The notes beneath the pieces were generated by a model. The model ran no database searches. It had not been told where the DNA came from and worked only from the letters and a program-made list of their open reading frames with translations. From Nitrospira sp. (GTDB lineage Bacteria; Nitrospirota; Nitrospiria; Nitrospirales; Nitrospiraceae): 48,128 nt of DNA. The stretch's first letter is position 1. Each line of letters opens with the position of its first letter. This document shows positions 15,062-35,267 of the stretch, piece after piece. The stretch spans positions 1 to 48,128 of the forward strand of contig JAHBWT010000023.1 in assembly GCA_019636815.1 (NCBI GenBank). Reading direction: 5' to 3'. Made by a program: the position numbers and the translations under genes.

Positions 15062-16441
15062 ATGACCGAAGATTGGGGAGCGATTCTCGTCGTCGATGAT
15101 GATGCCGATATGCGGGAACTCGCTTACGACATGCTGAAAGATCGCGGGCACCAAGTCACGACGGCCGGAAGTGGTCAGGAGGCCCTAAGATTGCTGGCCG
15201 AGGAGGACTACGCGGTTGTCCTGACCGATCTTCGGATGAAAGGGATGGAAGGATTGGAATTATTGATCCAAATCAAACAGACATATCCAGACAGCAATGT
15301 CATCCTCATGACGGCATTCGGCTCCGTGGAGACAGCCGTCGAAGCGATGAAACACGGAGCCAGCGATTATCTCACCAAGCCGGTCAAGAAGGATGAGTTG
15401 GTTCGCGTGATCGAGCGGGTCGTTCGAGAAGCATCCCTACGACGGGAAGTCAGCCGACTCAGGAAAGAAGTCCACAAGGAATACAGCTTTCACCATATCT
15501 TGGGCAAGAGCAAGGCGATCCAAGCGGTCTTCGATCTCATTCGTCGAGTCGCCGATAGTCCGACCAACGTCCTGATCACAGGAGAGAGCGGAACCGGGAA
15601 GGAGTTGGTGGCGAAAGCCATTCACTACAACAGCGATCGGAAAGATGCACCCTTTATTCCGGTGAACTGCGCAGCGATTCCGGAACAGCTGCTGGAGAGC
15701 GAACTGTTCGGCCACATGCGCGGCGCGTTTACCGACGCGAAGATGGACAAGCGCGGATTATTTGAAGAAGCCCAGAAAGGCACGTTGTTTCTCGATGAAA
15801 TCAGTGAGTTACCGCTCATGCTTCAGGCCAAGATTCTGCGCGCAATTCAAGAAAAAGAAATCAGGCGCGTGGGAGCCACCAAACCGATCTCGGTCGATGT
15901 GCGGATCATTGCCGCCACCAACCTGAATCTCAGCGAGGAAGTGAAAAACAAGCGATTCCGCGAGGATCTCTTTTATCGACTGAATGTGATCGAGCTGAAG
16001 TTGCCGCCGCTGAGAGAACGCCGAGAGGATATTCCACTCTTGGTCGAAGCCTTTCTGAAGAAGTGCGGCGAGGCCCGTGGGAAAGAAGTCAAGGGCGTCA
16101 GCGAGGCGGCTCTCGCCATGCTCATGGACTATGCCTGGCCCGGGAATGTCAGGGAGCTGGAGAATGTCATCGAACGGGCCGTCACGTTGAGTCGAGGCGA
16201 AAAAGTCTCCCCGGACGATCTGCCCGTGGCAGTACAAGGAGCACGTGGGGACCGCCGCGTGTTGGACGAAGCCTCCGAGAAGGCTCTCCCTTTACACGAA
16301 CTCGAGAAAGAGTACATCAAGAAGATCCTCGAAAAGTCAGGCGGCAATAAGTACCAAGCTGCTCATGCCCTTGGCATTGATCGGAAGACTCTGTATCGTA
16401 AGCTCGCCGAAATCGAAGGTAAGCCTCATCTAGAGGAATGA
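15062..16441 (+). CDS. NtrC-type response regulator (sigma54 activator), GAFTDA variant
   Basis: 459 residues from ATG 15062 behind GAGGAGAGAAGG. A receiver (1-120, Asp in VLTDLRM ~55, Lys in TKPVKK) is followed by an AAA+ domain (~145-370) with Walker A GESGTGKE (~174) and Walker B LFLDEIS. A Fis-type helix-turn-helix lies at the C-terminus (NKYQAAHALGIDRKTLYRKL). It should bind upstream sites and drive sigma54 polymerase when phosphorylated. The loop that contacts sigma54, normally GAFTGA, reads GAFTDA (~221); the paralogue at 19466 keeps GAFTGA. The equivalent Gly-to-Asp change in NorR is, as I recall, activating. The PAS kinase 58 bp downstream is the likely partner. Confidence 0.93.
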   Translation: MTEDWGAILVVDDDADMRELAYDMLKDRGHQVTTAGSGQEALRLLAEEDYAVVLTDLRMKGMEGLELLIQIKQTYPDSNVILMTAFGSVETAVEAMKHGASDYLTKPVKKDELVRVIERVVREASLRREVSRLRKEVHKEYSFHHILGKSKAIQAVFDLIRRVADSPTNVLITGESGTGKELVAKAIHYNSDRKDAPFIPVNCAAIPEQLLESELFGHMRGAFTDAKMDKRGLFEEAQKGTLFLDEISELPLMLQAKILRAIQEKEIRRVGATKPISVDVRIIAATNLNLSEEVKNKRFREDLFYRLNVIELKLPPLRERREDIPLLVEAFLKKCGEARGKEVKGVSEAALAMLMDYAWPGNVRELENVIERAVTLSRGEKVSPDDLPVAVQGARGDRRVLDEASEKALPLHELEKEYIKKILEKSGGNKYQAAHALGIDRKTLYRKLAEIEGKPHLEE

Positions 16442-16499
16442 CAACCTCTTTCTGATCATCGTATCAGAATTGGCTTCGGCCCGTGCTGAGGCAGCCGGG

Positions 16500-18800
16500 A
16501 TGGATCACGTGATACTCGTGGGCAGTCTTGCTATGCGCGCTGTGCCGTGGATGATTCCCGTTTTCACGATCGGAATATTCATCGCCGACCTCCTCGCCCC
16601 CGTCGGAATTGCCGTGTCGATTCTGTACGTCATTCCGATGCTCCTGACACTCCTCTCATCTCGCGTGTATGATCCTCTCTCTTTTTCCGTTGTTGCCACC
16701 GCGCTGACCTGGATGGATCTTCTGATAAAACCGGACGGTGTTCCGCTTCCCTACGCGGTATTCAACCGTGCATTGAACACGATGGTTCTCTGGGTCATTG
16801 CGATAGGGTTGATGTGGTATCGACGAACTCAGGAGGAGTTGACGTCCGCACGGGTCGAGCAAGCGCATGCCGAAGGTTTGATGACGGTGGCGCAAGAGGC
16901 CCGAGACCGTGCGGATAGGGATATCGTGCGCGCCGTCGTTCGTCGCGAAAAGGCTGAAGAGCAACTCGTCGTCAGCCAGCTCAGACTGGAAGGTATCATT
17001 GAATCCGCGATGGATGCGATCATCACGGTGGACGAGGATCAGAACGTCGTGTTGTTCAACCGAGCAGCCGAACGGATGTTCGGCTGCTCTACTCAAGAAG
17101 CAATGGGGCGGCCGCTTGAGCGCTTTCTGCCCGAGCGGTTTCGCGAAACCCACCGTCATCATATTCATACATTTGGGCAATCCGGTGTGACAACCCGACA
17201 GATGGGTAAACTGGGCACGGTGATGGGGCTCCGCTCGAACGGAGAAGAGTTTCCCATCGAGGCTGCCATCTCCCATATCGCCGTGGAGAAGAGAATATTC
17301 TATACCGTCATTCTCCGAGACATCACTGAACGGAAACAAGCAGAAGAAGCCATCCGTGAGGGTGAGCGGCAACTGGCCACGTTGGTCGGCAACCTTCCGG
17401 GCTTCGTCTATCGGTGCCAAAATGATCGCGACCGGATCTTCGAGTATGTCAGTGAGGGGGTCTGCGATTTGACCGGGTACACCACCGATGAATACCTCGT
17501 TCAACGCAGTACCTCATACGGCACGAATATGCATCCCGATGACAGCGAGCGTGTCTGGCAGGATGTTCAGGCCGCTCTGAAGCAGCATCGCCCCTTCGAG
17601 ATGACCTACCGCATCCTGACCAGATTGGGTGAGGTCAAATGGGTGTGGGAGCGAGGCGAGGGGATTTACACACCGGACGGCTCACTCAACTACGTAGAAG
17701 GATTCGTCACCGATGTGACCGAACGCAAGCGAGCCGAACAGCTGCTCCGACAGAGTGAAGAAAGCCACAGACGCCTTATTGCGTTCTCACCCTACGCAGT
17801 GCTTGTCAACAGGGGCGACCGGATCGTGTTTGCCAACGACCAGGCCATCAAGCTGTTTGGCGCCGTGAGGGCGAACGAGATTCTGGACAAGTCACTCTTG
17901 GATCTCATTCATCCGGATCATCATGCCGTCGTTCGCGAGCGGATCCACGAGTTGCTGGAGGGGATGCAAGTGGTTCCGGTCTCGGAGGATAAAATCCTCA
18001 AGCTCGATGGGACGTCGATTGACGTCGAGGTCAGCGCCACTCGATTCACTGATGAAGAGGGACCGGCCATCTTGGTCATGCTCCGGGACGTCAGCGAGCG
18101 GAAGCGGCTACAGGCACAATTGCGCAGGACCGAGCGGATCGCAGAGCTTGGGACGCTGGCATCCGGTATGGCTCACGAAATCGGAACACCGATGAACGTC
18201 ATCCTTGGCCGCGCCGAATATCTGATGGATCGGGTGACGGAGGAGCCGATCAAAAAGGGGCTCCAGACTATCATTACCCAGGTCGAGCGGATCACAAGGG
18301 TGATGAATCAGCTGCTATCGTTCGCGCGCCGCAAAATGCCCGAACGTCGTCCGTTGGATCTTCGAAAGGTGATTGAAGACAGTGTGGAGATTTTCCACGA
18401 ACGTCTCGCGCGAAATCGGATTCACGTTGAAATGGACCTGGCAACCTCCTGTCCCTTGGTCCTGGCTGATGCGGATCACATGAGCCAGGTGGCGATCAAT
18501 CTCATCATGAATGCCGTCCATGCCATGCCGGACGGGGGAATTCTGCGAGTCGGTCTGGCGTCGGAGAATCAGATGGTGAAACTCACGGTGGTGGATACGG
18601 GCCATGGAATTCCCCGAGATGTGATCAAGAAGATCTTCGAGCCATTCTTTACGACGAAAGAATTCGGCCAAGGAACTGGATTGGGATTGACCGTGGTCAA
18701 GGGCATCATCGACGAACACCAGGGTTCCATCGCCGTTGAGAGTGAAGAAGGGAAGGGTACGACGTTTAGAATTCTACTGCCGCTTGCTTCAACCAGCTGA
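16500..18800 (+). CDS. PAS histidine kinase with four-helix membrane sensor (NtrB-like core)
   Basis: 766 residues from ATG 16500; a TTG at 16470 is possible but lies before the membrane domain. Residues ~12-105 form a four-segment membrane module (DLLAPVGIAVSILYVIP, later FNRALNTMVLW) shared with the kinases at 39905 and 45891. After a coiled coil come three PAS domains near 162-285, 289-410 and 421-535. HisKA has the acceptor His in SGMAHEIGTPMN (~557), the pattern of NtrB/ZraS-type kinases that pair with sigma54 activators. The ATPase has NLIMNAVHAMPDG, DTGHGIP and GTGLGLTVV. It follows the GAFTDA regulator by 58 bp on the same strand and is its probable partner. The signal is unknown. Confidence 0.92.
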   Translation: MDHVILVGSLAMRAVPWMIPVFTIGIFIADLLAPVGIAVSILYVIPMLLTLLSSRVYDPLSFSVVATALTWMDLLIKPDGVPLPYAVFNRALNTMVLWVIAIGLMWYRRTQEELTSARVEQAHAEGLMTVAQEARDRADRDIVRAVVRREKAEEQLVVSQLRLEGIIESAMDAIITVDEDQNVVLFNRAAERMFGCSTQEAMGRPLERFLPERFRETHRHHIHTFGQSGVTTRQMGKLGTVMGLRSNGEEFPIEAAISHIAVEKRIFYTVILRDITERKQAEEAIREGERQLATLVGNLPGFVYRCQNDRDRIFEYVSEGVCDLTGYTTDEYLVQRSTSYGTNMHPDDSERVWQDVQAALKQHRPFEMTYRILTRLGEVKWVWERGEGIYTPDGSLNYVEGFVTDVTERKRAEQLLRQSEESHRRLIAFSPYAVLVNRGDRIVFANDQAIKLFGAVRANEILDKSLLDLIHPDHHAVVRERIHELLEGMQVVPVSEDKILKLDGTSIDVEVSATRFTDEEGPAILVMLRDVSERKRLQAQLRRTERIAELGTLASGMAHEIGTPMNVILGRAEYLMDRVTEEPIKKGLQTIITQVERITRVMNQLLSFARRKMPERRPLDLRKVIEDSVEIFHERLARNRIHVEMDLATSCPLVLADADHMSQVAINLIMNAVHAMPDGGILRVGLASENQMVKLTVVDTGHGIPRDVIKKIFEPFFTTKEFGQGTGLGLTVVKGIIDEHQGSIAVESEEGKGTTFRILLPLASTS

Positions 18801-22405: not shown

Positions 22406-22456
22406 TTGCTCGAAGGAGGGCCGTGCTCCTCGATGCGTAACCAGAGGGGGAGCTTC

Positions 22457-23146
22457 ATGCATACTTGGAACATTCACCGCAACGTGGGGGGTTGGGCCGT
22501 CGCGGTTTCACTTGCTGCGGCAATTGCCGGAGGAGGTGTAGGGCCTGCTTCAGCCGAAGAGACGACAGAGACGACGTCAACGGGAAATCGCGTGTTCTTT
22601 CGCGGGGGCTATGGCGAGATGCTGAGCGATCGCGCCGGCGAGTTGATCACCGACGTCCATGGCGTAGCTGGCAAGAACGATGGGACCGGCGGCTATTACA
22701 TCGGTGGTGGAGCCGAGCTCATGATCACCAAGGATCTGTGGGGTCTGGTGAACGGCGTCGCGCTTGTCGGCGAGATCGGATTGGAATTCAAGCGGTGGGC
22801 CTCCAGCAGCGTCGTGAATGGGGAAGCCCTGGTTGGTGATACCACACCGGCCAAGGTGCAGATGACCATGTTGACAGCGAGCGTGGCGCCTAAAGTGAAG
22901 TTCAGGCAGGGAACCGATTTCCAGCCCTGGATCATTCCGGCCGGGTTGGATTTCCACGTCATCAGCCCGACGTCGAGTCAGATCAACTACTTGGACATTG
23001 GGGTTCAGTTCGGTGGCGGAGCCGAATATCGAGTGTGGAAAGAGTTATGGCTGGGTCTCGACAGCCGATTCCACCTTGCCTCCAATCAAACCAACACGGT
23101 GAACAATTTCTGGACGGCGGGCGTTTATGGGGCCATCGGATTCTGA
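22457..23146 (+). CDS. Outer-membrane beta-barrel protein
   Basis: 229 residues from ATG 22457, preceded by GAGGGGGAG; an ATG at 22406 would put 17 odd residues before the signal peptide. The signal peptide (VAVSLAAAIAGGGVGPASA) ends before EETTET. The mature chain alternates polar and hydrophobic residues with Gly and aromatic belts (VFFRGGYGEML, GGYYIGGGAELM, GGGAEYRVWKELWLGLDSRF). It ends in GVYGAIGF, whose terminal Phe is the usual insertion signal for outer-membrane barrels. The size suggests an 8-10 stranded OmpW/OmpX-like barrel. The gene lies just upstream of the broken chlorite-dismutase-like gene and the oxidase operon. Substrate, if any, unknown. Confidence 0.82.
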   Translation: MHTWNIHRNVGGWAVAVSLAAAIAGGGVGPASAEETTETTSTGNRVFFRGGYGEMLSDRAGELITDVHGVAGKNDGTGGYYIGGGAELMITKDLWGLVNGVALVGEIGLEFKRWASSSVVNGEALVGDTTPAKVQMTMLTASVAPKVKFRQGTDFQPWIIPAGLDFHVISPTSSQINYLDIGVQFGGGAEYRVWKELWLGLDSRFHLASNQTNTVNNFWTAGVYGAIGF

Positions 23147-23682: not shown

Positions 23683-23698
23683 TGGCACGGCGATTGCG
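23683..23698 (+). promoter_or_regulatory. Near-consensus sigma54 promoter upstream of the oxidase operon
   Basis: TGGCACGGCGATTGCG matches the consensus TGGCACG-N4-TTGC-W at every defined base except the last, with GG and GC exactly 10 nt apart. Transcription would start near 23709, giving a ~310-nt leader before the oxidase start at 24022. An inverted repeat, CACGA (23620-23624) and TCGTG (23636-23640), 45-65 bp upstream is a possible activator site. No other gene starts between promoter and oxidase. Confidence 0.65.
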
Positions 23699-23736
23699 CT
23701 ATGCAGGCAACGCTGGTGAGGGTTGGGTGATTTTGG

Positions 23737-23836
23737 ACCGGCCTCCGAATGACCCATTCCTTCGCAAGAAGGAACCCTTCACCAGCTCTTAACCCTTCTG
23801 AGATACGAGGCCGGTAAGGTCGGTTCGGAGGCCGGT
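23737..23836 (+). ncRNA. Structured leader RNA with alternative pairing
   Basis: The 13-nt ACCGGCCTCCGAA (23737-23749) pairs perfectly with TTCGGAGGCCGGT (23824-23836), closing a ~100-nt domain. Inside it are a hairpin, TTCCTT with AAGGAA around CGCAAG, and a second GAGGCCGGT (23807-23815) that could take the same partner as the one at 23828-23836. Two competing 3' arms for one 5' arm is the layout of a riboswitch or attenuator. It lies in the predicted leader of the oxidase operon. It does not match a riboswitch class I know. It could instead be a small RNA or an unusual terminator. Confidence 0.45.
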
Positions 23837-23937: not shown

Positions 23938-24021
23938 TTAAGAGAAAGGGGAGGCCGAGTTATGAGATCTCATCAGTTCAAAATTCCCAGTCACAGTAAG
24001 AGGCAAAGGAGGGCCGGCGTC

Positions 24022-27000
24022 ATGCGACGATTCCTGGCCCTGGTAATGGCGAGCGGTCTGGCCGTGGCACCGATGGCGTTGGCCGCTGAGAAACACGGTC
24101 ACCACCGGGACACGACGACACAGGCGTCGGCGGAAAAGGTGATCTACCGCGAAGGCGGGGCGATCCTGCATGACCGCATGATGGAGGAGGTCAAACGGCA
24201 GCAGGAATTCATGGGGACGAAGGGCGGTTATAGTACCGGCGCCAACAGCCATATGCTGCAGCAGGGTGTGCTGTTGGTGGCGGAGGACCCCGCCAAGGTG
24301 GCCGTCGGGAACGGGCAGCGGTGTCCAACGAACGCGCCGGTCAAAGAATATCACGTCTCGGCGATCAACATCGAGATTACGCTGAGCCGATTTCTCGATT
24401 ATTTCCCGGGGTACATGTATGTCCTGAAGGAAGATCTGGAGAAGGCCCGCGCGGAAGAGGCGGCGAATAAAGCGGCGCGGGAAAAGGAGAACGATCCGGG
24501 TGCCGTGTCGAACGGATTGCAGGGCGACGTGATCCAGCCTCTGGTGATTCGGGCCAACCAGGGCGATTGTCTGAAGCTCACGTTGCACAACGACATCACC
24601 GAGGAGGAGGAGGCGACCAACCTCATCATCAATGGTTCCTCGATGGTCGTGTCATCCACCGGCAAGCCGGCGACGCCGTCGAACCCAGACGCGACCGTGG
24701 CGGCCGGGAAGCAGCAAAGTTTCGAGTGGTACATCAAGCCGGATACCCAGGAGGGCGCTCGATTTTTCCGGTCGCATGCATCACGTGAACAGTTCAATCT
24801 GGGCTTGATCGGGATGCTGGTGGTGGAGCCACGAGGCTCTCGGTATCTCAGCCCATTCGATGGGAAGCCGATGGCGAGCGGGTGGGAAGCGATGATCGAA
24901 GATCCTAACGGGGCGGATTTCAGAGAGTTTGCGATCTTTTATCATGAGGCAGGTGACGAGGCCTTCCGGCTCTTGAACAAGAAAGGGGAGATGCTCCCCC
25001 AGCGTGATCCGCACACCGATTCCTATCGGCCCGGCGCGCGGCTTTTGAACTACCGCAGCGAACCGCACGGGACTCGCATTGAGCTGCAGGCCCACATGGG
25101 ATTCTATGGCGACGAGTCCATGGCCTATGGGTCCTACACATTCGGCGACCCGGCGACGACGATTCCCCGATCCTATCTCGGTGATCCGGCGAAGTTCCGG
25201 ATGGCGGGCGGGTCAGAAATCGTCCACTCTCATCATTTGCACGGCGGGTCTATCCGTTGGGCGCGCCAGCCGGAGAACAGTAACCTTGACTTCGCAGCCT
25301 CCAGCAACGGGCCGGTGAAGTTCCCCCTCATCAGTGATAACTCGGATCGTCTCGACGTGCAGTCCATCGGTCCGACGGAAATCTATGACCAGGTGATCGA
25401 GGGCGGATCGGGCGGATTGCAGGCATTGGCCGGCGAGTTCGTCTTCCACTGCCATATTCCGCAGCATTATGTGACCGGGATGTGGGGTTTCTGGCGGGTC
25501 TACAACACACTGCAACAAGCGGGGTATCAGACCGACGTCATGAAACCACTGGCTGAGTTGCCGGACCGGATCGGCCGCATGAAGCCCGGCACGCCGAGCG
25601 AGAAACTGGTCGGGACGACGGTCGACTGGTATGGCGGCAAGAAGTTCGAGATCACCAAAGGCAAGACCGATTGGAAAGCAAATCCGGTCAAGGTTTCATT
25701 GAAGGATTGGGTCGAGATGCAGCTGCCACCGCAAGGCAAGCCGGGCCATAAGAAAACGGAAAAAGAGCAGACGCTCGCCTACGACGCGACGGTGAACGAT
25801 TGGGCCTGGGACGGCGCCAAGGCGCTCACTGAACCGGAGACGACCTACGAATGGGTGAACTACACTTCGGCAACACCGGGCAAGCGGCAGACCATTTTGT
25901 TCGATCCGAGAACCGGGAAGGTGGCCTGGCCCTGGCTGCGGCCGCACCTCGGCCGGCGCGTGCCGTTCTCGCCGAGCCACAGCGGCGCGCCGTGGTTGGA
26001 GCCGATCCACCGGCGCGACGACGGCAGCAATTCGACGGAGCCGGCCAAGCCTGGTGAGAACGGGCCCTGGAGTCTCTGTCCAGAAGGCGCACCGCTCAAG
26101 CAGTTCAATATCCATGCGATCACGTTGCCGATTACTTTGAAGAAGGCGACGGCCAAGACACCGGCGATCGTGGATCCGCAGGGGCTGCTCTATGTGCTGC
26201 ACGAAGAGGAAGCCGAGGTCCGGAAGAACCCGGCCAAGCAGATGCCGCTGGTCATTCGCGGCAACGTGCAGGATTGCATCGACGTCGTCTACAAGAGCGA
26301 ACTCACGGACGACGAACGGCAAGGGTTCTCCAGCAAGACGAACCTGCATCCGCACATGTTCCAGTTCGACACGCAGGCGTCCGATGGGCCGATCATCGGG
26401 TTCTCCTATGAAATGTCACTCCGTCCTTTCACCATCCTGAAAGACGAGCATCCCGGCAAAGGCATGCCGGTGCCGATGAACACGACCATCGAGGCGGATG
26501 CCGCGAAGGGTGCGACCAGTATCAAAGTGAAGGATGCCTCCCGCTTCCACGTGAAGACCGAGCTGGGGGTGGGCATGGACGAAGTGGGAAGGTTCGAATC
26601 GGCCCGCATCAGCAAGATCGAGGGCAACACCATCACCTTCGAGCGGCCGTTGAAGTACGGGCATAAGAAGGGCGAGATCGCGTCCGTCGAATGGATCCGC
26701 GAACGCTGGTATGTGGACGCCGATTTCGGCACCACGTTCTGGCACGACCACGTGTTCGGTCTCGACGGGTGGGGGCATGGGTTCTACTCCACCTTCATCG
26801 CCGAACCGCCACGGTCCACCTATCATGACCCCGTGACCGGGAAAGAGATTCGCAGCGGCCCGGTCGCCGACATCCACACCACCGAGCCGGTGTCCGCCCA
26901 CATCCGGGGCTCCTTCCGGGAGATCGTGACGCAGGTTATGGACTCCAATCCCCGGACATCCGAGCTGATCACGGCTGACAATCCTCAGGTCAGAGTCGGA

Positions 27001-28737
27001 GCGATTTCCGTGGACGGCACGCCGTCCGCGGTCTATCCGGCACGGCTCAATCTGTCGCCGATGAAGTTCCTCAATGGCGGCGAAGCGACGACGGGCGGCG
27101 GATACAATATGCGCGTCGAGCCTCTGTCGGTGCGATTGGCCAACAATCCCGACCCCTCGCAATTGTTCAACAGCCGGATCCACGGTGATCCCGAGACGCC
27201 GATGTTGCGGGCATACCTGGGCGACCCGGTCGTGGTGCGGTTGATCGAGGGATCGGCCAACGAAGTGCATTCCTGGCATATCAGCGGGCACTGGTTCCCG
27301 ATGGAACGCTACAGCAAGAACTCCATCCCGCGGAGCTCGCTGCACGTGGTGATCGGGGAACGGTACGATGCGGCCATTCCGGCCGCCGGCGGACCGCAGC
27401 AGATGGCCGGCGACTACCTGTACTACAGTGGCCGCGCCTCGCACTTTGCGGAAGGCAGTTGGGGACTCTTCCGGGTCTTGGACCAGGCGGATGCGACATT
27501 GAAGCCGCTGCCGGGCCGTGAAGAGATCCCGCAGTCGGCCACGTCCGTCTGTCCGGCCGACGCGCCGGTGAAAAGCTTCAACGTCGCGGCCATCGACAAG
27601 GCGATCCGTTACAACAAGGGCGCGCCTGGGGTGATGGAGGTGGACCTGGAGCGTAAGATGGTGTTCGGGAACGAGACCGGCAAGATGTACGTGCTCGAAG
27701 GCGAGAAGACCAAGGTCGCCTCCGGCAGCCTTGAGCCGAGTCCCTTGACCCTGCACGTGAACGTGGGCGATTGCATCAAGGTCCACCTCAAGAACGAGAT
27801 GGCCAAGGACCGGGCCGGATTCCACGTGGATCATCTGGCGTTCGACCCCAAGGAATCGATGGGGATCAACGCCGGCAATAATCCCGGAGATCAAACGGTT
27901 GCGCCGGGCCAAAGCCGGACGTACACGTTCTACGCCCATCCGGAGTTCGGAGAGAACGCGGCCCTGATTCAGGACTGGGGCAACGTGATCGAAAACCCGC
28001 GGAACGGGCTCTTCGGCGCGATCATCATCGGGCCGAAGGGATCGCTGTACCGTGATCCGGTGACGGGCGAGGATCTGGCCCAGAAGAGTTCCTGGCGGGC
28101 GGACGTGATCGTGGATCGGAGCCAGTCGGGAAACGAGACCAGGCAGAACTACCGGTCCTTCGCGCTCCTGTTCCAGGACGAGGACAACATCATCGGCACC
28201 AGCTTCATGCCGTACCTCCAAAAAGTGGCCGGCGTGACCGCGGTGAATTACCGCTCTGAGCCGACCGACTACCGCATGGAGAAAGGCTGCGCGTACAGCG
28301 AGGTCTTCGCGTGCGTGAAGACGGGGGAAACGCCGGTGACGCCGACCATCGCGGCGCACGTCGGCGATCAGGTGGTGATCCATGTCCTGGGTGCGTTCAG
28401 TGAGCAGGTGCAACTGTTCAGCGTGGCCGGGCATGAATGGAAGCACGAACCCTACATGAGCGGAGCGGACCTCGTGAGCACGATGGAGTTCGGCGGCACC
28501 GAGGTGATCAATGCCTGGCTGCATGGAGGGGCCGGCGGCCCGAACGGGATTCCCGGCGACTATCTCTGGTTGAACCAGCGCCCGGGCTACATGGACGCCG
28601 GTCACTGGGGAATGTTGAAGGTCCTGGACCGGGACAGCCGCGCGATCCTGCCGTTGAGCGGGCAGGCGCCGGCTACGCAGCAGGCCGAACATCAGATACC
28701 GGCGCAGTCCATGCCGGTGTCGATGAAGGCCGACTAG
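24022..28737 (+). CDS. Giant multicopper oxidase with permuted copper motifs (MnxG-like organisation)
   Basis: 1571 residues from ATG 24022, behind AAAGGAGGG and at a clean signal peptide (FLALVMASGLAVAPMALA). ATG 23962 also has a good site (GGGGAGG) and would add 20 basic residues. Normal laccases have ~500 residues; this has several cupredoxin units. All four copper motifs are present but permuted. HSHHLHGG (~401) and HCHIPQHYVTGM (~475, type 1 Cys, His, Met) come first, then LHPHMFQFDTQASDG (~774) and FWHDHVFG (~907). The last ~500 residues are further cupredoxin-like domains without copper ligands. To my knowledge this order and size resemble MnxG-type manganese oxidases, but the substrate could be another metal, a nitrogen compound or phenolics. 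It is the first gene of an operon with cupredoxin and metal-binding genes. Confidence 0.88.
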   Translation: MRRFLALVMASGLAVAPMALAAEKHGHHRDTTTQASAEKVIYREGGAILHDRMMEEVKRQQEFMGTKGGYSTGANSHMLQQGVLLVAEDPAKVAVGNGQRCPTNAPVKEYHVSAINIEITLSRFLDYFPGYMYVLKEDLEKARAEEAANKAAREKENDPGAVSNGLQGDVIQPLVIRANQGDCLKLTLHNDITEEEEATNLIINGSSMVVSSTGKPATPSNPDATVAAGKQQSFEWYIKPDTQEGARFFRSHASREQFNLGLIGMLVVEPRGSRYLSPFDGKPMASGWEAMIEDPNGADFREFAIFYHEAGDEAFRLLNKKGEMLPQRDPHTDSYRPGARLLNYRSEPHGTRIELQAHMGFYGDESMAYGSYTFGDPATTIPRSYLGDPAKFRMAGGSEIVHSHHLHGGSIRWARQPENSNLDFAASSNGPVKFPLISDNSDRLDVQSIGPTEIYDQVIEGGSGGLQALAGEFVFHCHIPQHYVTGMWGFWRVYNTLQQAGYQTDVMKPLAELPDRIGRMKPGTPSEKLVGTTVDWYGGKKFEITKGKTDWKANPVKVSLKDWVEMQLPPQGKPGHKKTEKEQTLAYDATVNDWAWDGAKALTEPETTYEWVNYTSATPGKRQTILFDPRTGKVAWPWLRPHLGRRVPFSPSHSGAPWLEPIHRRDDGSNSTEPAKPGENGPWSLCPEGAPLKQFNIHAITLPITLKKATAKTPAIVDPQGLLYVLHEEEAEVRKNPAKQMPLVIRGNVQDCIDVVYKSELTDDERQGFSSKTNLHPHMFQFDTQASDGPIIGFSYEMSLRPFTILKDEHPGKGMPVPMNTTIEADAAKGATSIKVKDASRFHVKTELGVGMDEVGRFESARISKIEGNTITFERPLKYGHKKGEIASVEWIRERWYVDADFGTTFWHDHVFGLDGWGHGFYSTFIAEPPRSTYHDPVTGKEIRSGPVADIHTTEPVSAHIRGSFREIVTQVMDSNPRTSELITADNPQVRVGAISVDGTPSAVYPARLNLSPMKFLNGGEATTGGGYNMRVEPLSVRLANNPDPSQLFNSRIHGDPETPMLRAYLGDPVVVRLIEGSANEVHSWHISGHWFPMERYSKNSIPRSSLHVVIGERYDAAIPAAGGPQQMAGDYLYYSGRASHFAEGSWGLFRVLDQADATLKPLPGREEIPQSATSVCPADAPVKSFNVAAIDKAIRYNKGAPGVMEVDLERKMVFGNETGKMYVLEGEKTKVASGSLEPSPLTLHVNVGDCIKVHLKNEMAKDRAGFHVDHLAFDPKESMGINAGNNPGDQTVAPGQSRTYTFYAHPEFGENAALIQDWGNVIENPRNGLFGAIIIGPKGSLYRDPVTGEDLAQKSSWRADVIVDRSQSGNETRQNYRSFALLFQDEDNIIGTSFMPYLQKVAGVTAVNYRSEPTDYRMEKGCAYSEVFACVKTGETPVTPTIAAHVGDQVVIHVLGAFSEQVQLFSVAGHEWKHEPYMSGADLVSTMEFGGTEVINAWLHGGAGGPNGIPGDYLWLNQRPGYMDAGHWGMLKVLDRDSRAILPLSGQAPATQQAEHQIPAQSMPVSMKAD

Positions 28738-28760
28738 GCGGAGCACGCCGGGAACGGCGT

Positions 28761-28795
28761 GAGGGAATCCGGCGGCATCAGAGCCGGGTTCCCTC
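28761..28795 (+). terminator. Hairpin after the multicopper oxidase gene
   Basis: GAGGGAATCCGGC and GCCGGGTTCCCTC form a 13-bp stem with one G-T pair and a 9-nt loop, 24 bp past the oxidase stop. There is no T-run. It may partially terminate or stabilise the oxidase transcript, lowering expression of the four downstream genes. Confidence 0.55.
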
Positions 28796-28860
28796 GCACG
28801 ATCCGGTATCCCGAGGACCAATGTCTTGAAGCGGATCCGAGCCTGCGGTAGAAGCATCAG

Positions 28861-29460
28861 ATGAAAGACGGGGCGCGCGGGGGCAGAGCGGGTCGTCGGA
28901 TCGGGAGCTGGTTGGCGGTCGGCTTTCTCGTCGGCATGGCCCATCAGGCAACCGCGCTCGACTTTTCAGCAGACCGGATCGTGAAGAGCGGGAACAGCGT
29001 GGTGACGGCCCACGTCAATGTCAAGGACGATCGCTGGCGGTTCGAGTTCGCCCAGCCGCAGGGAGAGGCCAGCATCATCATCGTGCGGATGGACCGCCAA
29101 GCCTCCTGGCTCATTTTGTCGAAGCGGCGCCAATATCTCGAAGTGCCGATCGCCGAGCATCATCTGTTATCGGTGACCGAAAAGATGGCGGGAGAATTGT
29201 CACGGCAATTCATCGGCACCGAGACGTTGAACGGCTATCCCACGGAATTATTCGAGGTCACGGTGTCCGGGGACACCGGAGACCGGCATTACTATCAATG
29301 GGTGACGCAGAGGCAGCGGTTCCCGGTCAAGACGGTCAGCAAAGAGGGGACCTGGTCCGAAGAGTTTCGCCATGTCGTCTTTACGGAGCAGTCCCCACTC
29401 TTATTCGAGTTGCCGCAACGGTTAGACCGGGCGAATCCGCCAATGCAGAGACAAGGCTAG
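28861..29460 (+). CDS. Periplasmic LolA/DUF4412-like protein
   Basis: 199 residues with a signal peptide (SWLAVGFLVGMAHQATA), so periplasmic. The mature part reads DFSADRIVKSGNSVVTAHVN, then DRWRFEFAQPQGEASIIIVR, then WLILSKRRQYLEVP. This is the beta-sheet pattern of LolA/LolB-like and DUF4412 folds, in which a hydrophobic half-barrel binds lipid or another ligand. The ETLNGYPTELFEV stretch (~121-133) is typical of this group. Here it may chaperone or present something to the oxidase rather than sort lipoproteins, as no Lol partner is near. It lies 123 bp after the oxidase, with the next gene 19 bp downstream. The start at 28861 has a weak ribosome binding site. Confidence 0.65.
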   Translation: MKDGARGGRAGRRIGSWLAVGFLVGMAHQATALDFSADRIVKSGNSVVTAHVNVKDDRWRFEFAQPQGEASIIIVRMDRQASWLILSKRRQYLEVPIAEHHLLSVTEKMAGELSRQFIGTETLNGYPTELFEVTVSGDTGDRHYYQWVTQRQRFPVKTVSKEGTWSEEFRHVVFTEQSPLLFELPQRLDRANPPMQRQG

Positions 29461-29479
29461 GATGGGAGGAGGAAGACTG

Positions 29480-30253
29480 GTGAGACATCTGACGATCCTC
29501 GTGCTGAATCTCCTGATACTGGCGCCGGCCGGCATCGTGGTCGGAGATGGGGGGCATGCGAGCGCATATGATGCCGTCCCCGTGACCGACGGGGCGGTCG
29601 TGAAGGGGACAGTAACGTTCAAGGGGACGATACCGGATCCCAAGGGATTCGAGCTGCGCCGCTACTCGGACCGGGCGTTTTGCGGCGCGCTGTCCGACGG
29701 TGACGGGTATCGGTTCCTCAAGGAAGTGAACGTCGGGCAGGCGGGCGGCCTCAAAGATGTGGTGCTTGTGGTGGAAGGTGTCCAACAGGGGAAGCCGTTT
29801 ACGTCCACGGACGCGCAGGTCGAAGCCAACGTGTGCCAGTTTCTCCCCTTCGTGACCGTCGTCGGCGATAAGCGCCAACTGACCGTGACCAACCGGGACC
29901 CCGTGTCGCACGATATTCAGGGCTATGCGTATGACCAAACCGGGGTGGATATTGTCCTGCACCGGCCGTCACTGAAAGCGACCGGGACTACGGATACGGT
30001 GCACTTGGTCAAGGGGCGAAGAGTGTTTACTATGCAGTGCGGGATGCATCCCTATATGCAGAACTGGGGCTATGCGATCGACAACCCCTATTATGCCGTG
30101 ACCGATCTGGAGGGCTCGTTCACCATCGGAGATCTGCCGGCCGGCCGGTACCGGATCAAGGCCTGGCATCCGATCCTGGGGGAACAGGAGCGGGAAGTGA
30201 CCGTCGAACCGAACGGCACGGCGACCCTTGATCTGGTGTTTGAACGAAAGTGA
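29480..30253 (+). CDS. Secreted cupredoxin-like protein with C-terminal regulatory-like domain
   Basis: 257 residues from GTG 29480, chosen because GGAGGAGG lies 7 nt upstream. An ATG at 29462 overlaps that site. The signal peptide (LTILVLNLLILAPAGIVVG) is followed by VKGTVTFKGTIPDPKGF, a strand set found in MauL/plastocyanin-like copper proteins. Candidate copper ligands are the His in NRDPVSHDIQGYA (~143) and the Cys, His and Met of FTMQCGMHPYM (~183-191), a complete type 1 site. The last ~50 residues (DLEGSFTIGDLPAGRYRIKA) form a carboxypeptidase-regulatory-like beta-sandwich. It could be the electron partner of the multicopper oxidase or a copper carrier. Confidence 0.8.
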   Translation: MRHLTILVLNLLILAPAGIVVGDGGHASAYDAVPVTDGAVVKGTVTFKGTIPDPKGFELRRYSDRAFCGALSDGDGYRFLKEVNVGQAGGLKDVVLVVEGVQQGKPFTSTDAQVEANVCQFLPFVTVVGDKRQLTVTNRDPVSHDIQGYAYDQTGVDIVLHRPSLKATGTTDTVHLVKGRRVFTMQCGMHPYMQNWGYAIDNPYYAVTDLEGSFTIGDLPAGRYRIKAWHPILGEQEREVTVEPNGTATLDLVFERK

Positions 30254-30267
30254 CAAGGAGAAAGAGG

Positions 30268-30774
30268 ATGCGAGTCATACCGGCTGTCGGTCTTGTGATA
30301 GCGGCAGGGACGCTCTGGATCGGAACGGCCTTGTCCGGGGACCAGCAGGCTGCATCAACCGGCCGGGTGGAAGTGGTGTTGGCCGGCGAGCACCGTCAGG
30401 ACCTGGCAATGATCAAACAGAACTTTGCCGACGCCGGCTTGGCCAACGTCCATATTCAATTCATGAAGGCGGGGCGACCGCCGACCAATCTCGGGCTTGG
30501 ACCCCAGGTGACGGCGGAACGCGCGCGTGCCGCCATTCGGATGGCCAAGCAGTATAACCAGGGCGTTACGATCCTCTTGCCGGAACGGCTCTTCCCGGGC
30601 CATTATATCGCCATCGCCTCCTCCGGCTTCGACGACACCGTGGAGTATCCTGTGAGTGAGGAGGCGGTGCAGGAACTGGAGAATCCGTCGCTCACGACGG
30701 AGGAGTTTCACGAACTCTACCGCCGGCTGACGTCCGCGGATCACGCACCAGCCAAGAAAGGCCGGGTATTCTGA
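30268..30774 (+). CDS. Exported protein of unknown function in the oxidase operon
   Basis: 168 residues from ATG 30268, directly after AAGGAGAAAGAGG; an ATG at 30250 lies before that site. The N-terminus IPAVGLVIAAGTLWIGTALS is a signal peptide or anchor. The mature part is an alpha/beta mix: RVEVVLAGEHRQDLAMIKQN, then ANVHIQFMKAGRPPTNLGLG, then GVTILLPERLFPGHYIAIAS. No Cys is present, so it is not a thiol or type 1 copper protein. It overlaps the next gene by one base (TGATG). I do not recognise the family; consistent spacing in the operon suggests a role with the oxidase and cupredoxin. Confidence 0.7.
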   Translation: MRVIPAVGLVIAAGTLWIGTALSGDQQAASTGRVEVVLAGEHRQDLAMIKQNFADAGLANVHIQFMKAGRPPTNLGLGPQVTAERARAAIRMAKQYNQGVTILLPERLFPGHYIAIASSGFDDTVEYPVSEEAVQELENPSLTTEEFHELYRRLTSADHAPAKKGRVF

Positions 30775-31181
30775 TGACAGCCATGCGGATCTTCGGCGCG
30801 CTGTTCTTTTCAGCCGCCGCTGGCGCGACCCTGGTGTTGGCCGGGCCGCCGAACGCCATTCAGGACCACGGCCGGGCGATGGTGCGGGATGCCGAAGAAA
30901 TGGTGATGCACGGAGGTATGGGCGACGGTAAAGCGATCATCCACCATTGCGGCGAAGTAACGAAACATGCGGAAGCCATTCTCCAGTTGTTGCCGCGCGC
31001 CGACGAACATGGCAAGAAAGCCGTGCCGCATTTGCAGGATGCCATTAAACATTGCAAGCGGGTGGCCGAGATGGGGGACAGGGTGGATCCCGGCGCCAGC
31101 TTGAATCCCGGCACTAAAGCGCGCGCGGCGGCCAGAGAGGCCATGAAACATCTCATGGCGATGAGAGACGGCGGTGCGTGA
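30774..31181 (+). CDS. SmbP-like small periplasmic metal-binding protein
   Basis: 135 residues; its ATG overlaps the preceding stop, indicating translational coupling. The signal peptide (FFSAAAGATLVLAGPPN) is followed by a helical chain with regularly spaced His and Met: DHGRAMV, MVMHGGMGDG, AIIHHCGEVTKHAEAIL, AVPHLQDAIKHCKRVAEM and EAMKHLMAM. This helix-His periodicity is that of SmbP from ammonia oxidisers, a four-helix periplasmic protein that binds copper and other divalent metals. Two Cys next to His (HHC, KHC) are additional soft ligands. It is the last gene of the oxidase operon, so it probably buffers or delivers copper, or holds the metal being oxidised. The family is inferred from pattern. 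Confidence 0.7.
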   Translation: MTAMRIFGALFFSAAAGATLVLAGPPNAIQDHGRAMVRDAEEMVMHGGMGDGKAIIHHCGEVTKHAEAILQLLPRADEHGKKAVPHLQDAIKHCKRVAEMGDRVDPGASLNPGTKARAAAREAMKHLMAMRDGGA

Positions 31182-31571: not shown

Positions 31572-32939
31572 CTAGTCCCTATTCGGCTGGGCCTCACAGT
31601 GGGTCTTGAAGTCCGCCTTTGGCAACAGGCTCCGCTTCTCCATTTCCGTGATCAAGACATGGGCGGCCTCGAAGAGGTCGCGCTGCTCGTCGTCCGAGAC
31701 CCAAAACTTCGTTTTGATGCGGGTCGCCCGTTCGGGCAATGTCGATTCGTCCGGCACCTCGTCTGAATAGGATAAGTGCCGGAGCGCGATATGCCGCACC
31801 TCGCATCCGCACTGGTGAGGGTCGTTCACCGGAAGGCGCCCGCGCATCTCTCGGTCCTGTTGCGAGCTCGGAATGCCGAGATGCTGGAGCGTCGTCCGCC
31901 GGGATTCGAGCAGCATGGTGTCCGTCGCATCGAGCGCGTTGGTATTGATGAAATAGTCGATCGTCCGGCGGCTCGATCGGCGGCCGTTCAGTTCCGCGTT
32001 CTCGTTGGCCGACGTTGCATCAACGAGCAAAATGAGGCAGCCGTTCGGGAAGATGCCGTCGAGCGTTTTCCCAGGAAGGTGACGGTTGAGGTATTCGAGC
32101 ATCGCCTGGACGCCCAGGTTATCGATCGGGCCGCCGTCGTAGAGATGGAAGTATCGCATCGGATCGAGTCCGAGTTCGGCGAGCGCCTCGGCGTTCTGCG
32201 GCCTGTAGTTTTCCAGCGTCACATCGTCGAACGCGCCGGGAAAAGCGGAGGAGGCATTGACCGCATTGGCGATCCGGTAGCGAGACAGGTTCGAACGCAG
32301 GTCGGCAAACCGCTCGTCGGTGAAGGTGAAGCGCGTGTGATCGTTGCGCAGGGTGGCGTTCAAGAGGATCTTGGGATGCGGGCGCAGGTCGGCGAAGGTC
32401 GCGTGGTGGTAAAGCCGTTTGTTGAAGACCTGGACCATGATGTCGGACCGGGTGAAATCGGTCAGCCAGAAACGGAAGATGTTCTGGGGGAGCAGCCAGC
32501 GCCACAACCAGCTGCTTTGAAAGTCGAACCCGAGCGCGGCGCGGACAGCCTCCGGTGTGAAGGCGCCGGCTTTGTCGCCGAGGCCGTAATAGGTCGCCGG
32601 TAAGGTCCCGCCGGATACGCCGGAAATCACATCGACCTGTTGAAGTAGCCCGCGTTCCTGCAATTCCAGCATGACGGCGGCCCCGAAGTTCGCCGCCCGA
32701 CTGCCTCCCCCCGAGATCGCCAGCCCCACAAAGCGCCCGTCTTGTGTTTCGAGATCGGTCAACGCCCAAGACGCGGCGGTCGCCGGCGGAGACGGTTCGG
32801 TCTGATACGGCTCGTTCCACCCGGGCCGCCAATGTCCCGGGAGAATGGCACACCCGGCTGCCAGACAGAACCAGATGATCAACAGAGTCGGCAGAAGATA
32901 TGGACGGCATAGCCGGAGGAAGGGTCGGGACTCATGCAT
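31572..32939 (-). CDS. Patatin-like phospholipase lipoprotein
   Basis: 455 residues. An N-terminal hydrophobic stretch ends in the lipobox LAAGC (~26-30), so the protein is lipid-anchored in the envelope. The patatin active-site elements are in order: oxyanion loop SGGGSRAANFG (~75-85), nucleophile elbow GVSGG (G-x-S-x-G, ~105-109) and the catalytic dyad Asp in YDGGPIDNLG (D-G-G, ~267-276). Patatins hydrolyse acyl chains from phospholipids. This variant may act in outer-membrane turnover or as a secreted lipase. It is convergent with the oxidase operon and is preceded upstream by other minus-strand envelope genes, with a ~200 bp gap. Catalytic residues look intact. Confidence 0.88.
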   Translation of the reverse strand: MHESRPFLRLCRPYLLPTLLIIWFCLAAGCAILPGHWRPGWNEPYQTEPSPPATAASWALTDLETQDGRFVGLAISGGGSRAANFGAAVMLELQERGLLQQVDVISGVSGGTLPATYYGLGDKAGAFTPEAVRAALGFDFQSSWLWRWLLPQNIFRFWLTDFTRSDIMVQVFNKRLYHHATFADLRPHPKILLNATLRNDHTRFTFTDERFADLRSNLSRYRIANAVNASSAFPGAFDDVTLENYRPQNAEALAELGLDPMRYFHLYDGGPIDNLGVQAMLEYLNRHLPGKTLDGIFPNGCLILLVDATSANENAELNGRRSSRRTIDYFINTNALDATDTMLLESRRTTLQHLGIPSSQQDREMRGRLPVNDPHQCGCEVRHIALRHLSYSDEVPDESTLPERATRIKTKFWVSDDEQRDLFEAAHVLITEMEKRSLLPKADFKTHCEAQPNRD

Positions 32940-33138: not shown

Positions 33139-33753
33139 CTATTTGGGAGCGTCTGGTTTGGGCATGACCGGGCTCACGGCATTCTGGTCTCGTCCCGCCT
33201 CATAGGACTCCAGCACCCGCGTGATCGTCGGCATCAGTTGGGTTATGCGGTCGGCCGGCAGCTTGATCCGCACGCCTCGGCCTTCGTTGCGGCCGAGGGA
33301 AAAGATGTGGAACTCCTGTATGGCGTTGTGCCGGTCGTCTCGATAGGTGAAGGTCAAGCGCTTTGCGGGGAACCTCGCCAGAATCGTGTCCTGATCCTTC
33401 TCCCAGGCAATCTGGATCTGCTTCTTGTCATAAAGATCCGTCATGATGCGCCGGTGCGCGGCGGCGAATTCTTCAAGCGTCTGGCGCCTGTCCTGATTCG
33501 TGCCTTCCGTCAGATTCATGAATCCGGAGAGAGCGACTTGGCTTTTTTCGACCGGCGGATAGAGTGTGATGCCGATCCCGTCCGGCATCGGGTTTCCGAG
33601 ACGCCAGTCTCCCGGGTATCGGACGGAAAATCCGAAGCGCTCGTTGGTGTAGCGTTTCGTGTCGCCGGGCTCCGCCGCACGAGCGAAGGGAGCGCACGGA
33701 TCAAGGCCTTGGCTCACCATCAGCACGATCAAGATCGTCCACACTCGGTTCAT
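33139..33753 (-). CDS. Exported PsbP/DUF1795-like protein
   Basis: 204 residues from ATG 33753 behind CAGGAGGAACGGT. The signal peptide (VWTILIVLMVSQGLDPC...ARA) is followed by KRYTNERFGFSVRYPGDWRL, the hallmark opening of PsbP-like and DUF1795 domains (Y-x-x-x-x-F-G-F-x-x-x-Y-P-x-x-W). The core continues with TLEEFAAAHRRIM and EFHIFSLGRNEGRGVRIKLP, alternating strands ending in a helix (ITRVLESYEAG) as in that fold. These domains are periplasmic ligand or partner binders with no known catalysis. It lies 46 bp downstream of the SUMF1-like gene on the same strand, so the two probably form an operon. Confidence 0.75.
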   Translation of the reverse strand: MNRVWTILIVLMVSQGLDPCAPFARAAEPGDTKRYTNERFGFSVRYPGDWRLGNPMPDGIGITLYPPVEKSQVALSGFMNLTEGTNQDRRQTLEEFAAAHRRIMTDLYDKKQIQIAWEKDQDTILARFPAKRLTFTYRDDRHNAIQEFHIFSLGRNEGRGVRIKLPADRITQLMPTITRVLESYEAGRDQNAVSPVMPKPDAPK

Positions 33754-33799: not shown

Positions 33800-34675
33800 C
33801 TAGGGCAGCGATCGCGCACAGCGAAAACCAATGGTCACGGCGCGTCGATCCGGCGAGGCGCCCCCTCGCGTGGCCGTTCGTAACAACGCCGGCGCACTTT
33901 TCCAAGACCCTCCGCGCACCGCTTTGTATCGACCGCTGGTTGGCCCACGGGGGTTGCGGTCCGGCATGGCCACATAGTAGTCGATCCCGAACCAGTCTTG
34001 AACCCATTCCGCCACGTTACCCGCCATGTGATGAAGGCCGTAAGGGCTGCGGCCCTCCTTGCCACTTTCCACGGCAGCGACGATAGGTATTTCGTGGACA
34101 TGGTACTGCCCGAATGTCGCCAGCATCGGTGTGGGTGGACTCTGCCCCCAGGGGAAGAGATTGCCTCCGTCTCCTCGCGCGGCCTTTTCCCACTCGGCTT
34201 CCGTCGGAAGCCGCTTGCCCTGGGCCAGGCAAAACTCCGACGCCTCGGCCCATGTGACATAGAGCGCCGGCCAACGGGCGAGTGTTTCGGAAGGAACGGC
34301 ATGGACGGTCCTCGTATGGTCGATCAGCTTGCGCATTTCTTCGGGAATAGGATGGTCTTGCCGTTGCAGCCACAGCAACAATTCCCCCAGGCTGACCTCA
34401 TCTCGATCGATCTCAAACCGATCCAGCCACACGCGGCGCTGCGGTTGTTCCGTGTCGTCGTAGGGGAGATCGAGGCTGAATGGAGTATAGCTTGCTCGAG
34501 CCGTCCCCATGAGAAAGGGACCTTCGGCAACGAGCATCATGGGCGAGCCTGAAGCAAGCGACGCGATAGGCTCAAACGGTGACTCCTCGCTGGCGTTTCC
34601 GGTCGTTGGACGCGGGAATAGTCCCGTGAGCGCCGCGATAACGAGGAAACTGGAAACGACGAGATGGTGTCGCAT
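33800..34675 (-). CDS. SUMF1/formylglycine-generating-enzyme-like exported protein, no catalytic Cys
   Basis: 291 residues from ATG 34675, where GAAGG precedes the start and a signal peptide follows (HHLVVSSFLVIAALTGLFP); the frame is open further upstream but without protein character. The SUMF1 fold is evident: GPFLMGTARAS (~51), VTWAEASEFCLAQGKRLPTE (~152), AEWEKAARG, HMAGNVAEWVQDWF and AVRGGSWKSAPALLRTATR, ending IGFRCARSLP. In true formylglycine-generating enzymes the C-terminal R-G-G-S-W motif is followed by a copper-binding catalytic Cys (C-R-x-A-x-R). Here it is L-R-T-A-T-R, so sulfatase activation is not expected. Related folds (EgtB-like, ligand-binding, envelope assembly) remain possible. 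It is the first gene of a pair with the PsbP-like gene. Confidence 0.85.
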   Translation of the reverse strand: MRHHLVVSSFLVIAALTGLFPRPTTGNASEESPFEPIASLASGSPMMLVAEGPFLMGTARASYTPFSLDLPYDDTEQPQRRVWLDRFEIDRDEVSLGELLLWLQRQDHPIPEEMRKLIDHTRTVHAVPSETLARWPALYVTWAEASEFCLAQGKRLPTEAEWEKAARGDGGNLFPWGQSPPTPMLATFGQYHVHEIPIVAAVESGKEGRSPYGLHHMAGNVAEWVQDWFGIDYYVAMPDRNPRGPTSGRYKAVRGGSWKSAPALLRTATRGGASPDRRAVTIGFRCARSLP

Positions 34676-34790
34676 ACCTTCGTGTATCGGGAACTTCAGC
34701 CGGGAGTCAATGGCCGGAGGATGAAGCGTCAAGAGTGGAACGGCGAGTTGAGGATGACGATTTTTCGCTCGGGATCGACTATGATGCGGC

Positions 34791-35267
34791 ATGTACTCGA
34801 TCTTGGTCGTCCTGCACATCCTTGCCGCCATGATCTGGATCGGGGGGATGATGTTTCTCTCCCTGGTCTTGGCCCCGCTGGTCAGAAGTCGCAAAGCGGC
34901 GCCGGAATTCATGGCGCTGTTTCGATCCGCAGCGCTGGGATTTCGTCCCGTCGTCTGGATGGCGATAGCGGTCCTGCTTACCACAGGCCCGATGTTGTTG
35001 GCACATCGCGGGATCAATGTGGCGAATCCGGGCTCGTGGGCCGGGATCGTGACGGTGAAGGTGACGCTGGTCGTCCTATTGTTGTTTCTGACCGTCCTCC
35101 ACGATCTTGTCTTCGGCCCTCAGGTGAGTCGTGTCAGTACGATTCCGGAATCCCAGCGAACGCCCAGTGAACAGGTTGTTTTCAAGACAGCGCGCTGGCT
35201 GCCGCGCCTCTCGTTGTTCATCGGGCTAGCTGTGGTGATCGCGGCGGTGATGCTGGCACGGTCGTAA
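34791..35267 (+). CDS. CopD-like four-helix membrane protein
   Basis: 158 residues with four hydrophobic segments near 3-27, 47-70, 83-105 and 137-156. The first carries LHILAAMIWIGGMMFLSLVL, the L-H-x-x-A-x-x-x-W-x-G-G pattern of CopD-domain and related heme-copper-type membrane proteins; the His can ligate copper or heme. A soluble loop (QVSRVSTIPESQRTP) joins helices 3 and 4. CopD proteins take part in copper uptake or resistance with CopC, but no CopC is seen here. It is divergent from the SUMF1-like gene (115 bp between starts). A copper link fits the nearby oxidase operon, but that is context only. Confidence 0.75.
   Translation: MYSILVVLHILAAMIWIGGMMFLSLVLAPLVRSRKAAPEFMALFRSAALGFRPVVWMAIAVLLTTGPMLLAHRGINVANPGSWAGIVTVKVTLVVLLLFLTVLHDLVFGPQVSRVSTIPESQRTPSEQVVFKTARWLPRLSLFIGLAVVIAAVMLARS

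Follow-up and report, generated by a model that had tools for sequence, protein, structure and literature searches.

A conserved five-gene multicopper oxidase unit of Nitrospira preceded by a sigma54-type promoter and a structured leader RNA

The gene for an MnxG-like multicopper oxidase of Nitrospira is preceded by a sigma54-type promoter and a three-way-junction leader RNA, and it heads a set of five genes for exported proteins whose order recurs over the genus (Table 1). We consider it probable, if well short of assured, that this is a periplasmic metal-oxidizing unit of the order Nitrospirales under layered control. The main nitrite oxidizers belong to this order, as do all comammox bacteria known, and oxidases of this family are near universal there (96 of 98 genomes searched), falling into three clades with roughly 90, 70 and 55% identity to the protein of the window, by which we mean the whole 48,128-nt stretch of DNA analysed, a single contig of a 4.0-Mb draft genome. 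The conserved promoter and leader RNA offer a direct handle on this enzyme, and the trigger of the RNA would tell the purpose of the oxidase. To our knowledge, few regulatory RNAs are known in the Nitrospirales, and a true riboswitch at this position would be a new class.

Table 1. Features of the oxidase locus (positions in the window).
Feature	Position	Strand	Description
sigma54-type -24/-12 promoter	23683..23697	+	TGGCAC-N5-TTGC; no other strict match on either strand of the 48 kb window
Leader RNA core	23711..23787	+	77 nt, three-way junction; covariation; no Rfam match; models R1/R2
First segment complementary to P2 loop	23807..23814	+	GAGGCCGG; downstream of 79/125 RNAs, expected 1.5
Second segment	23824..23838	+	TTCGGAGGCCGGTTC; 15-nt pairing with P2 sequence GGACCGGCCTCCGAA, one G-U included; pseudoknot or alternative fold
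Shine-Dalgarno region	23950..23956	+	GGAGGCC; complements invariant GGCCUCC of leader RNA
Oxidase gene	23962..28737	+	MnxG-like multicopper oxidase, 1591 aa (1571 aa from start 24022 of the sequence-only reading)
Conserved hairpin between oxidase and LolA-like genes	28759..28797	+	15-bp stem; strong stems after nearly all clade A, B and C oxidase genes
LolA-like exported protein gene	28861..29460	+	199 aa
Cupredoxin gene	29462..30253	+	263 aa; exported, C-terminal CarboxypepD_reg sandwich
ORF4	30250..30774	+	174 aa; exported, family unassigned; likely start ATG 30268
SmbP-family protein gene	30774..31181	+	135 aa

Inspection of the open reading frames in the window bore out the order and strand of the five genes as given by an earlier, sequence-only reading of this DNA, and hydrophobic N-termini, judged by eye, are visible on all five proteins, in agreement with the signal peptides that it had assigned. 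That reading had identified the oxidase gene correctly but probably started it too far downstream: the upstream ATG is the likelier start because GGAGGCCGAG(N)TATGAG is conserved there in clade A, with a conserved GGAGG 7 nt before the codon. A gap of 123 nt separates the oxidase gene from the LolA-like gene and 1 nt the latter from the cupredoxin gene; with the likely ATG of ORF4, the cupredoxin and ORF4 genes adjoin, and the stop and start codons of the ORF4 and SmbP-family genes overlap by 1 nt.

The relatives that share these genes under a name are Nitrospira metagenome-assembled genomes. At 34 clade A loci from other Nitrospira with enough downstream sequence, some of which were fetched twice from two collections so that not all are independent, the oxidase gene is accompanied by the cupredoxin gene in 34, the LolA-like gene in 33, the SmbP-like gene in 29 and ORF4 in 19. 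The full order oxidase-LolA-cupredoxin-ORF4-SmbP is found in 14 of the 34; an apparent swap of SmbP and ORF4 in two more is due to a long alternative SmbP start, and the LolA-like and cupredoxin genes are swapped in two. The genes thus clearly co-occur in other genomes, and because their order recurs over the genus the conservation is strong, beyond chance, which supports the proposal of a dedicated, exported copper-protein unit. Clade B units are mostly arranged as oxidase-(cupredoxin)-ORF4-SmbP, and a clade A unit is often a few kb away; clade C units are arranged as oxidase-cupredoxin(s)-(LolA). The unit had been thought undescribed, and the five-gene set as such is indeed absent from the literature searched, although the oxidase and cupredoxins near it were noted for nitrite oxidizers in 2013. 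Neither the five-gene unit nor its promoter or RNA turned up in the openly searchable literature (subscription papers lay outside the search), and the literature searched gave no structured RNA linked to a multicopper oxidase.

The genome of the window carries paralogs on contig 72, where a second MnxG-like oxidase gene stands with two cupredoxin genes and has no leader RNA by either covariance model, and on contig 82, with a lone cupredoxin gene. At seven loci (L084, L086, L094, L095 and L097-L099) clade A and B oxidase units follow each other in tandem at a distance of a few kb, which suggests an old duplication. Three other loci (L076, L226 and L286) hold fragments of the cupredoxin, LolA and ORF4 genes, or the RNA, with no intact clade A oxidase gene, and these degraded units indicate repeated loss.

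While its account of the genes holds, the sequence-only reading overlooked the promoter and the leader RNA. A GGCA[CT]-N5-TTGC core is present in 22 of 22 distinct clade A upstream regions, against a background of 0.023 per kb per strand. Weights for scoring the promoter followed the sigma54 consensus; the strict TGGCAC pattern gave few sites, and the signal came from the relaxed core at a fixed position. Across a wider set, 113 of 125 RNAs have a sigma54-like core no more than 70 nt ahead of them (3.3 in shuffled sequence), nearly always at a distance of 26-28 nt; with this spacing, transcription would begin at the foot of helix P1. The genome of the window has rpoN, and the GG-N10-GC core, the fixed spacing and this gene together point to a sigma54 promoter; a scan for sigma70-type promoters gave nothing on the + strand, with matches no more frequent than in shuffles. 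A homolog of sigma54 activators is encoded directly upstream at 52 of 125 RNA loci. In the window, genes for a sigma54-activator response regulator and then a PAS histidine kinase (15062-18800, +) are found about 5 kb upstream; the former is a possible cognate activator.

The RNA block begins about 20 nt past the promoter core and is conserved well beyond its surroundings. It consists of three helices: P1, formed by GCUGGUGAGGG and CCUUCACCAGC; P2, closed by the invariant GGA-CCGGCC-UCC; and P3, UUCCUUC-GCAA-GAAGGAA. In a plain MAFFT alignment of 20 sequences (A6), which was not fitted to any structure, 97.5% of cells are paired, compared with 35-60% for slid structures, and five pairs show two-sided changes. 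An alignment of 82 distinct sequences (A9) was fitted to the covariance model and so leans to the structure; there, 92.5% of cells are paired, 25 of 29 pairs change on both sides, and the covariation score is 0.341 versus 0.150 for shuffled and at most 0.090 for slid controls. P1 varies in 11 of 11 pairs, and the GGA-CCGGCC-UCC hairpin is almost invariant. The 5' leader thus has a conserved, covarying structure such as is expected of a riboswitch. No Rfam 15 model matches the window region at E up to 5, and for another 13 loci none does so with E values up to 0.5.

With covariance model R1 the RNA is found in 67 of 98 relatives and, class-wide, in 179 of 269 genomes (27 of 56 genera), usually as one copy per genome. 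In a sample of the phylum, 81 of 295 genomes have it, all within the order Nitrospirales save one borderline match (G098, E 0.0025), which we treat as chance together with two matches below 30 bits. The RNA is closely associated with the oxidase: 119 of 130 sampled copies are followed on their own strand by an oxidase start within 900 nt, at a median of 213 nt. Among the other 11, three show an oxidase N-terminus by eye, two hold remnants of the unit, two stop at a contig edge and two are the weak matches taken as chance; the last two precede a Crp/FNR-like gene and a beta-barrel gene. The former of these (G313) is an intact RNA of 71 bits, followed by the regulator gene where the oxidase gene is expected; the latter (G071) is a weak copy before a gene for a beta-barrel outer-membrane protein. 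At 40 gene-neighbourhood loci, 30 of 31 matches of model R2 are upstream of oxidase genes, and many clade B and C genes have no RNA. In two genomes (G022 and G036) the RNA of the clade A unit is degenerate and a neighbouring clade C oxidase gene on the same contig has an intact one.

The invariant hairpin of P2, GGACCGGCCUCC, is complementary both to the Shine-Dalgarno region of the oxidase gene and to a segment in between. The sequence GGAGGCCGG occurs downstream of 71 of 125 RNAs (0.4 expected), and GGAGGCC or GGAGGCCG is present at 86 of 117 oxidase starts. The pairing of GGCCUCC could either form a pseudoknot with P2 intact or replace P2. For the leader of the window, the alternative fold is computed at -96.2 and the junction fold at -94.1 kcal/mol; across the leaders tested, the junction fold is the more stable by a median of 5.6 kcal/mol, and the two folds come within 5 kcal/mol of each other in 44% of them; bistability is therefore not general. 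Between a fifth and a third of leaders have a short complementary segment or none.

From these features, the leader RNA is probably a switch for oxidase production. The chances are nearly balanced that it is a protein-bound or purely thermodynamic element (a thermosensor, an RNA-protein site or an mRNA stabilizer) with no small ligand, a reading favoured by the fact that the invariant part is one hairpin and not a large pocket; against it, extreme hairpin conservation and downstream complements are usual for switches, though not decisive. With more reserve, and with the balance leaning somewhat the other way, we hypothesize that the leader is a new class of riboswitch restricted to the Nitrospirales, which would sense a metal ion or a metal-linked metabolite and gate the Shine-Dalgarno region of the MnxG-like oxidase gene; the same tentative proposal has it coupled to a sigma54 promoter whose position makes the RNA the first part of the transcript. 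Very improbable is the idea that the upstream inverted repeats, long and directly after the promoter as they are, serve as a DNA operator for a regulator beside it and not as RNA, since G-U pairs and changes on both sides keep three separate helices paired, the stronger RNA members score 85-105 bits where the reverse strand reaches 17-24 bits, and the loop is complementary to the Shine-Dalgarno region.

Profile searches place Cu-oxidase_3 and Cu-oxidase_2 over the cut-off on the oxidase, and its closest solved structure is MnxG (PDB-code: 9bxa; E 5.4e-99, in five aligned stretches). All ten copper ligands (His and Cys) are invariant in 48 of 48 homologs. Numbered from the start at 24022, the type 1 site comprises His-402, Cys-477 and His-482 with the axial Met-487, and the trinuclear ligands are His-405, His-407, His-476 and His-478 together with His-776, His-778, His-908 and His-910, in the motifs HSHHLH/HCH of domain 2 and HPH/HDH of domain 3; the later domains have motifs lacking the type 1 cysteine. 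Position 340 of 9bxa, which matches His-482, is an alanine, probably a deliberate mutant. The protein scores 126 bits against the NCBIfam MnxG equivalog cut-off of 3100 and is therefore a relative of MnxG, not an equivalog.

There is no methionine-rich stretch of the CueO type in the oxidase (at most four Met per any 50 aa). This and its likeness to MnxG make Mn(II) at least as likely a substrate as Cu(I), so that of the copper-oxidation pathway envisaged earlier the exported copper proteins stand and the oxidation of copper becomes no more than one possibility. We found no report of manganese oxidation by Nitrospira in the literature searched. The purpose could be to guard nitrite oxidizers against reactive oxygen by producing Mn(III), which we think rather unlikely as the specific function; it has behind it the similarity to MnxG and a published proposal for the MnxG-like oxidase of Nitrospina gracilis and Ca. 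N. defluvii (PMC3578206), and it is a version of the metal-oxidizing unit favoured here, differing solely in physiological purpose. Slightly further down, and unlikely in our judgement, is copper homeostasis, with the oxidase turning Cu(I) to Cu(II) in the manner of CueO, the cupredoxin and SmbP holding copper, and expression following the copper supply. Every partner that can be assigned binds copper or metal, and SmbP binds copper in Nitrosomonas, which fits this scheme. Set against this are the MnxG-like and not CueO-like architecture with no Met-rich segment, and the two or three paralogous units that a genome often carries, beyond the need of a detoxification enzyme. A role specific to comammox was set aside: within the genus, the clade A oxidase is present in 23 of 34 genomes with amoA and 10 of 25 without it, a difference too weak and confounded by kinship.

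The four partner proteins differ in how well they can be assigned. The LolA-like protein has no match to the LolA Pfam family in the profile search, which matched DUF4412 weakly; its AlphaFold2 model (pLDDT 84) is predicted to have the half-barrel fold of the LolA/LolB/RseB/ependymin group, with Z of 10-11 to LolA and about 12-13 to RseB/ependymin. The description of the third protein as a type 1 cupredoxin fused to a regulatory-like sandwich was confirmed: the ligands His-150, Cys-193, His-196 and Met-199 are kept in 96 of 96 homologs, and CarboxypepD_reg (PF13620) is over its cut-off. Its short C-x2-H-x2-M loop is like that of amicyanin. The last protein matches PF16785 (SMBP) with 38.6 bits (gathering threshold 29, E 1.3e-9), and Glu-41, Met-43, His-46, Met-49, His-57, His-58, Cys-59 and Cys-94 are invariant in 64 of 64 sequences. 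ORF4 is confined to Nitrospirota, with 59 loci among 84,980 genomes, and was absent from the plasmids searched. Pfam, NCBIfam and PDB profile searches gave no family for it, and Foldseek no match below E 0.001; its predicted structure is alpha/beta (pLDDT 81), with a best fold match of Z 3.3. A PDB match of ORF4 to a designed protein (E 1e-4) spans 30 residues only and was not used.

The hairpin after the oxidase gene differs in sequence among the clades and shows compensatory changes within clade A; a T-rich tail follows it in several clade C genes but not in the window. This strong, conserved stem in three clades makes simple co-transcription of all five genes doubtful, contrary to the single operon proposed before, and speaks for attenuation or protection of the 3' end and against an even expression of the five genes.

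In the metal-oxidizing unit that we favour, sigma54 RNA polymerase would start transcription at the foot of the three-way junction, and the leader would either keep its GGA-CCGGCC-UCC hairpin or pair that strand with the GGAGGCCGG segment or the GGAGGCC Shine-Dalgarno sequence, the balance of these pairings setting translation of the oxidase. The downstream hairpin may lower or uncouple expression of the helper genes. The exported oxidase would take electrons from metal ions at its type 1 copper, most likely from Mn(II) and next from Cu(I), with O2 reduced at the trinuclear centre that lies between domains 2 and 3. Of the helpers, the cupredoxin may carry electrons or copper and the SmbP-like protein may buffer metal, while assembly or ligand handling may be the part of the LolA-like protein and ORF4.

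The surroundings of the unit recur in part. A beta-barrel outer-membrane protein gene upstream (22406-23146, +) is found before clade A units in several genomes, and in G071 it is the gene preceded by the weak copy of the leader RNA. Genes for a weakly PsbP-like exported protein (33139-33753, -) and an FGE-sulfatase-domain protein (33803-35017, -) are convergent to the unit, and in most genomes the PsbP-like gene recurs close to units of clades A and B. A patatin-like phospholipase gene (31572-32939, -) stands between the unit and the PsbP-like gene and was not found near the units of the relatives compared.

With translational riboswitches and other cis-regulatory RNAs of Rfam, the leader shares a conserved 5' junction and complementarity to a Shine-Dalgarno sequence, while it matches none of the Rfam 15 families. 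ORF4 has a loose alpha/beta likeness to LytR_C-type domains (Rv2700, PDB-code: 6q10, Z 3.3; Rv0431, PDB-code: 2m5y, Z 2.9), and at these values we do not claim membership. The SmbP-family protein has the Pfam family and export in common with SmbP of Nitrosomonas europaea (PDB-code: 3u8v) and differs in having nine His in 135 aa and conserved H/M/C positions, with no strongly His-rich repeat. CueO and PcoA follow the same logic of a periplasmic multicopper oxidase; the Nitrospira enzyme is far larger, lacks the Met-rich segment and has other partners. Two novel oxidases have been described for Ca. Manganitrophaceae (PMC9040806), and multicopper oxidases go unmentioned in the main text of a comparison of the order from 2025 (PMC12342949). 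Another related system is the multicopper oxidase of the NXR cluster in Nitrospina gracilis and Ca. N. defluvii, which, in the parts of that paper drawn on here, resembles a Mn-oxidizing Bacillus oxidase, is proposed to defend against oxygen radicals and, compared by description, has cupredoxin-like proteins in the same cluster, as in our unit; those parts do not report a LolA-like/ORF4/SmbP unit, a sigma54 promoter or a leader RNA (PMC3578206). The Bacillus Mnx complex (PDB-code: 9bxa; PMC5622069) is also among the closest known systems. The Nitrospira oxidase is about 370 aa longer than MnxG and differently regulated, and by description its cupredoxin, LolA-like, ORF4 and SmbP partners stand apart from MnxE and MnxF. 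Since MnxG needs its copper-binding MnxE/F partners (PMC5622069), an oxidase with genes for copper-binding partners is not new in kind: both oxidases are long chains of several cupredoxin domains that carry the type 1 site in domain 2 and divide the trinuclear half-sites between domains 2 and 3, and genes for small copper-binding partners lie near both.
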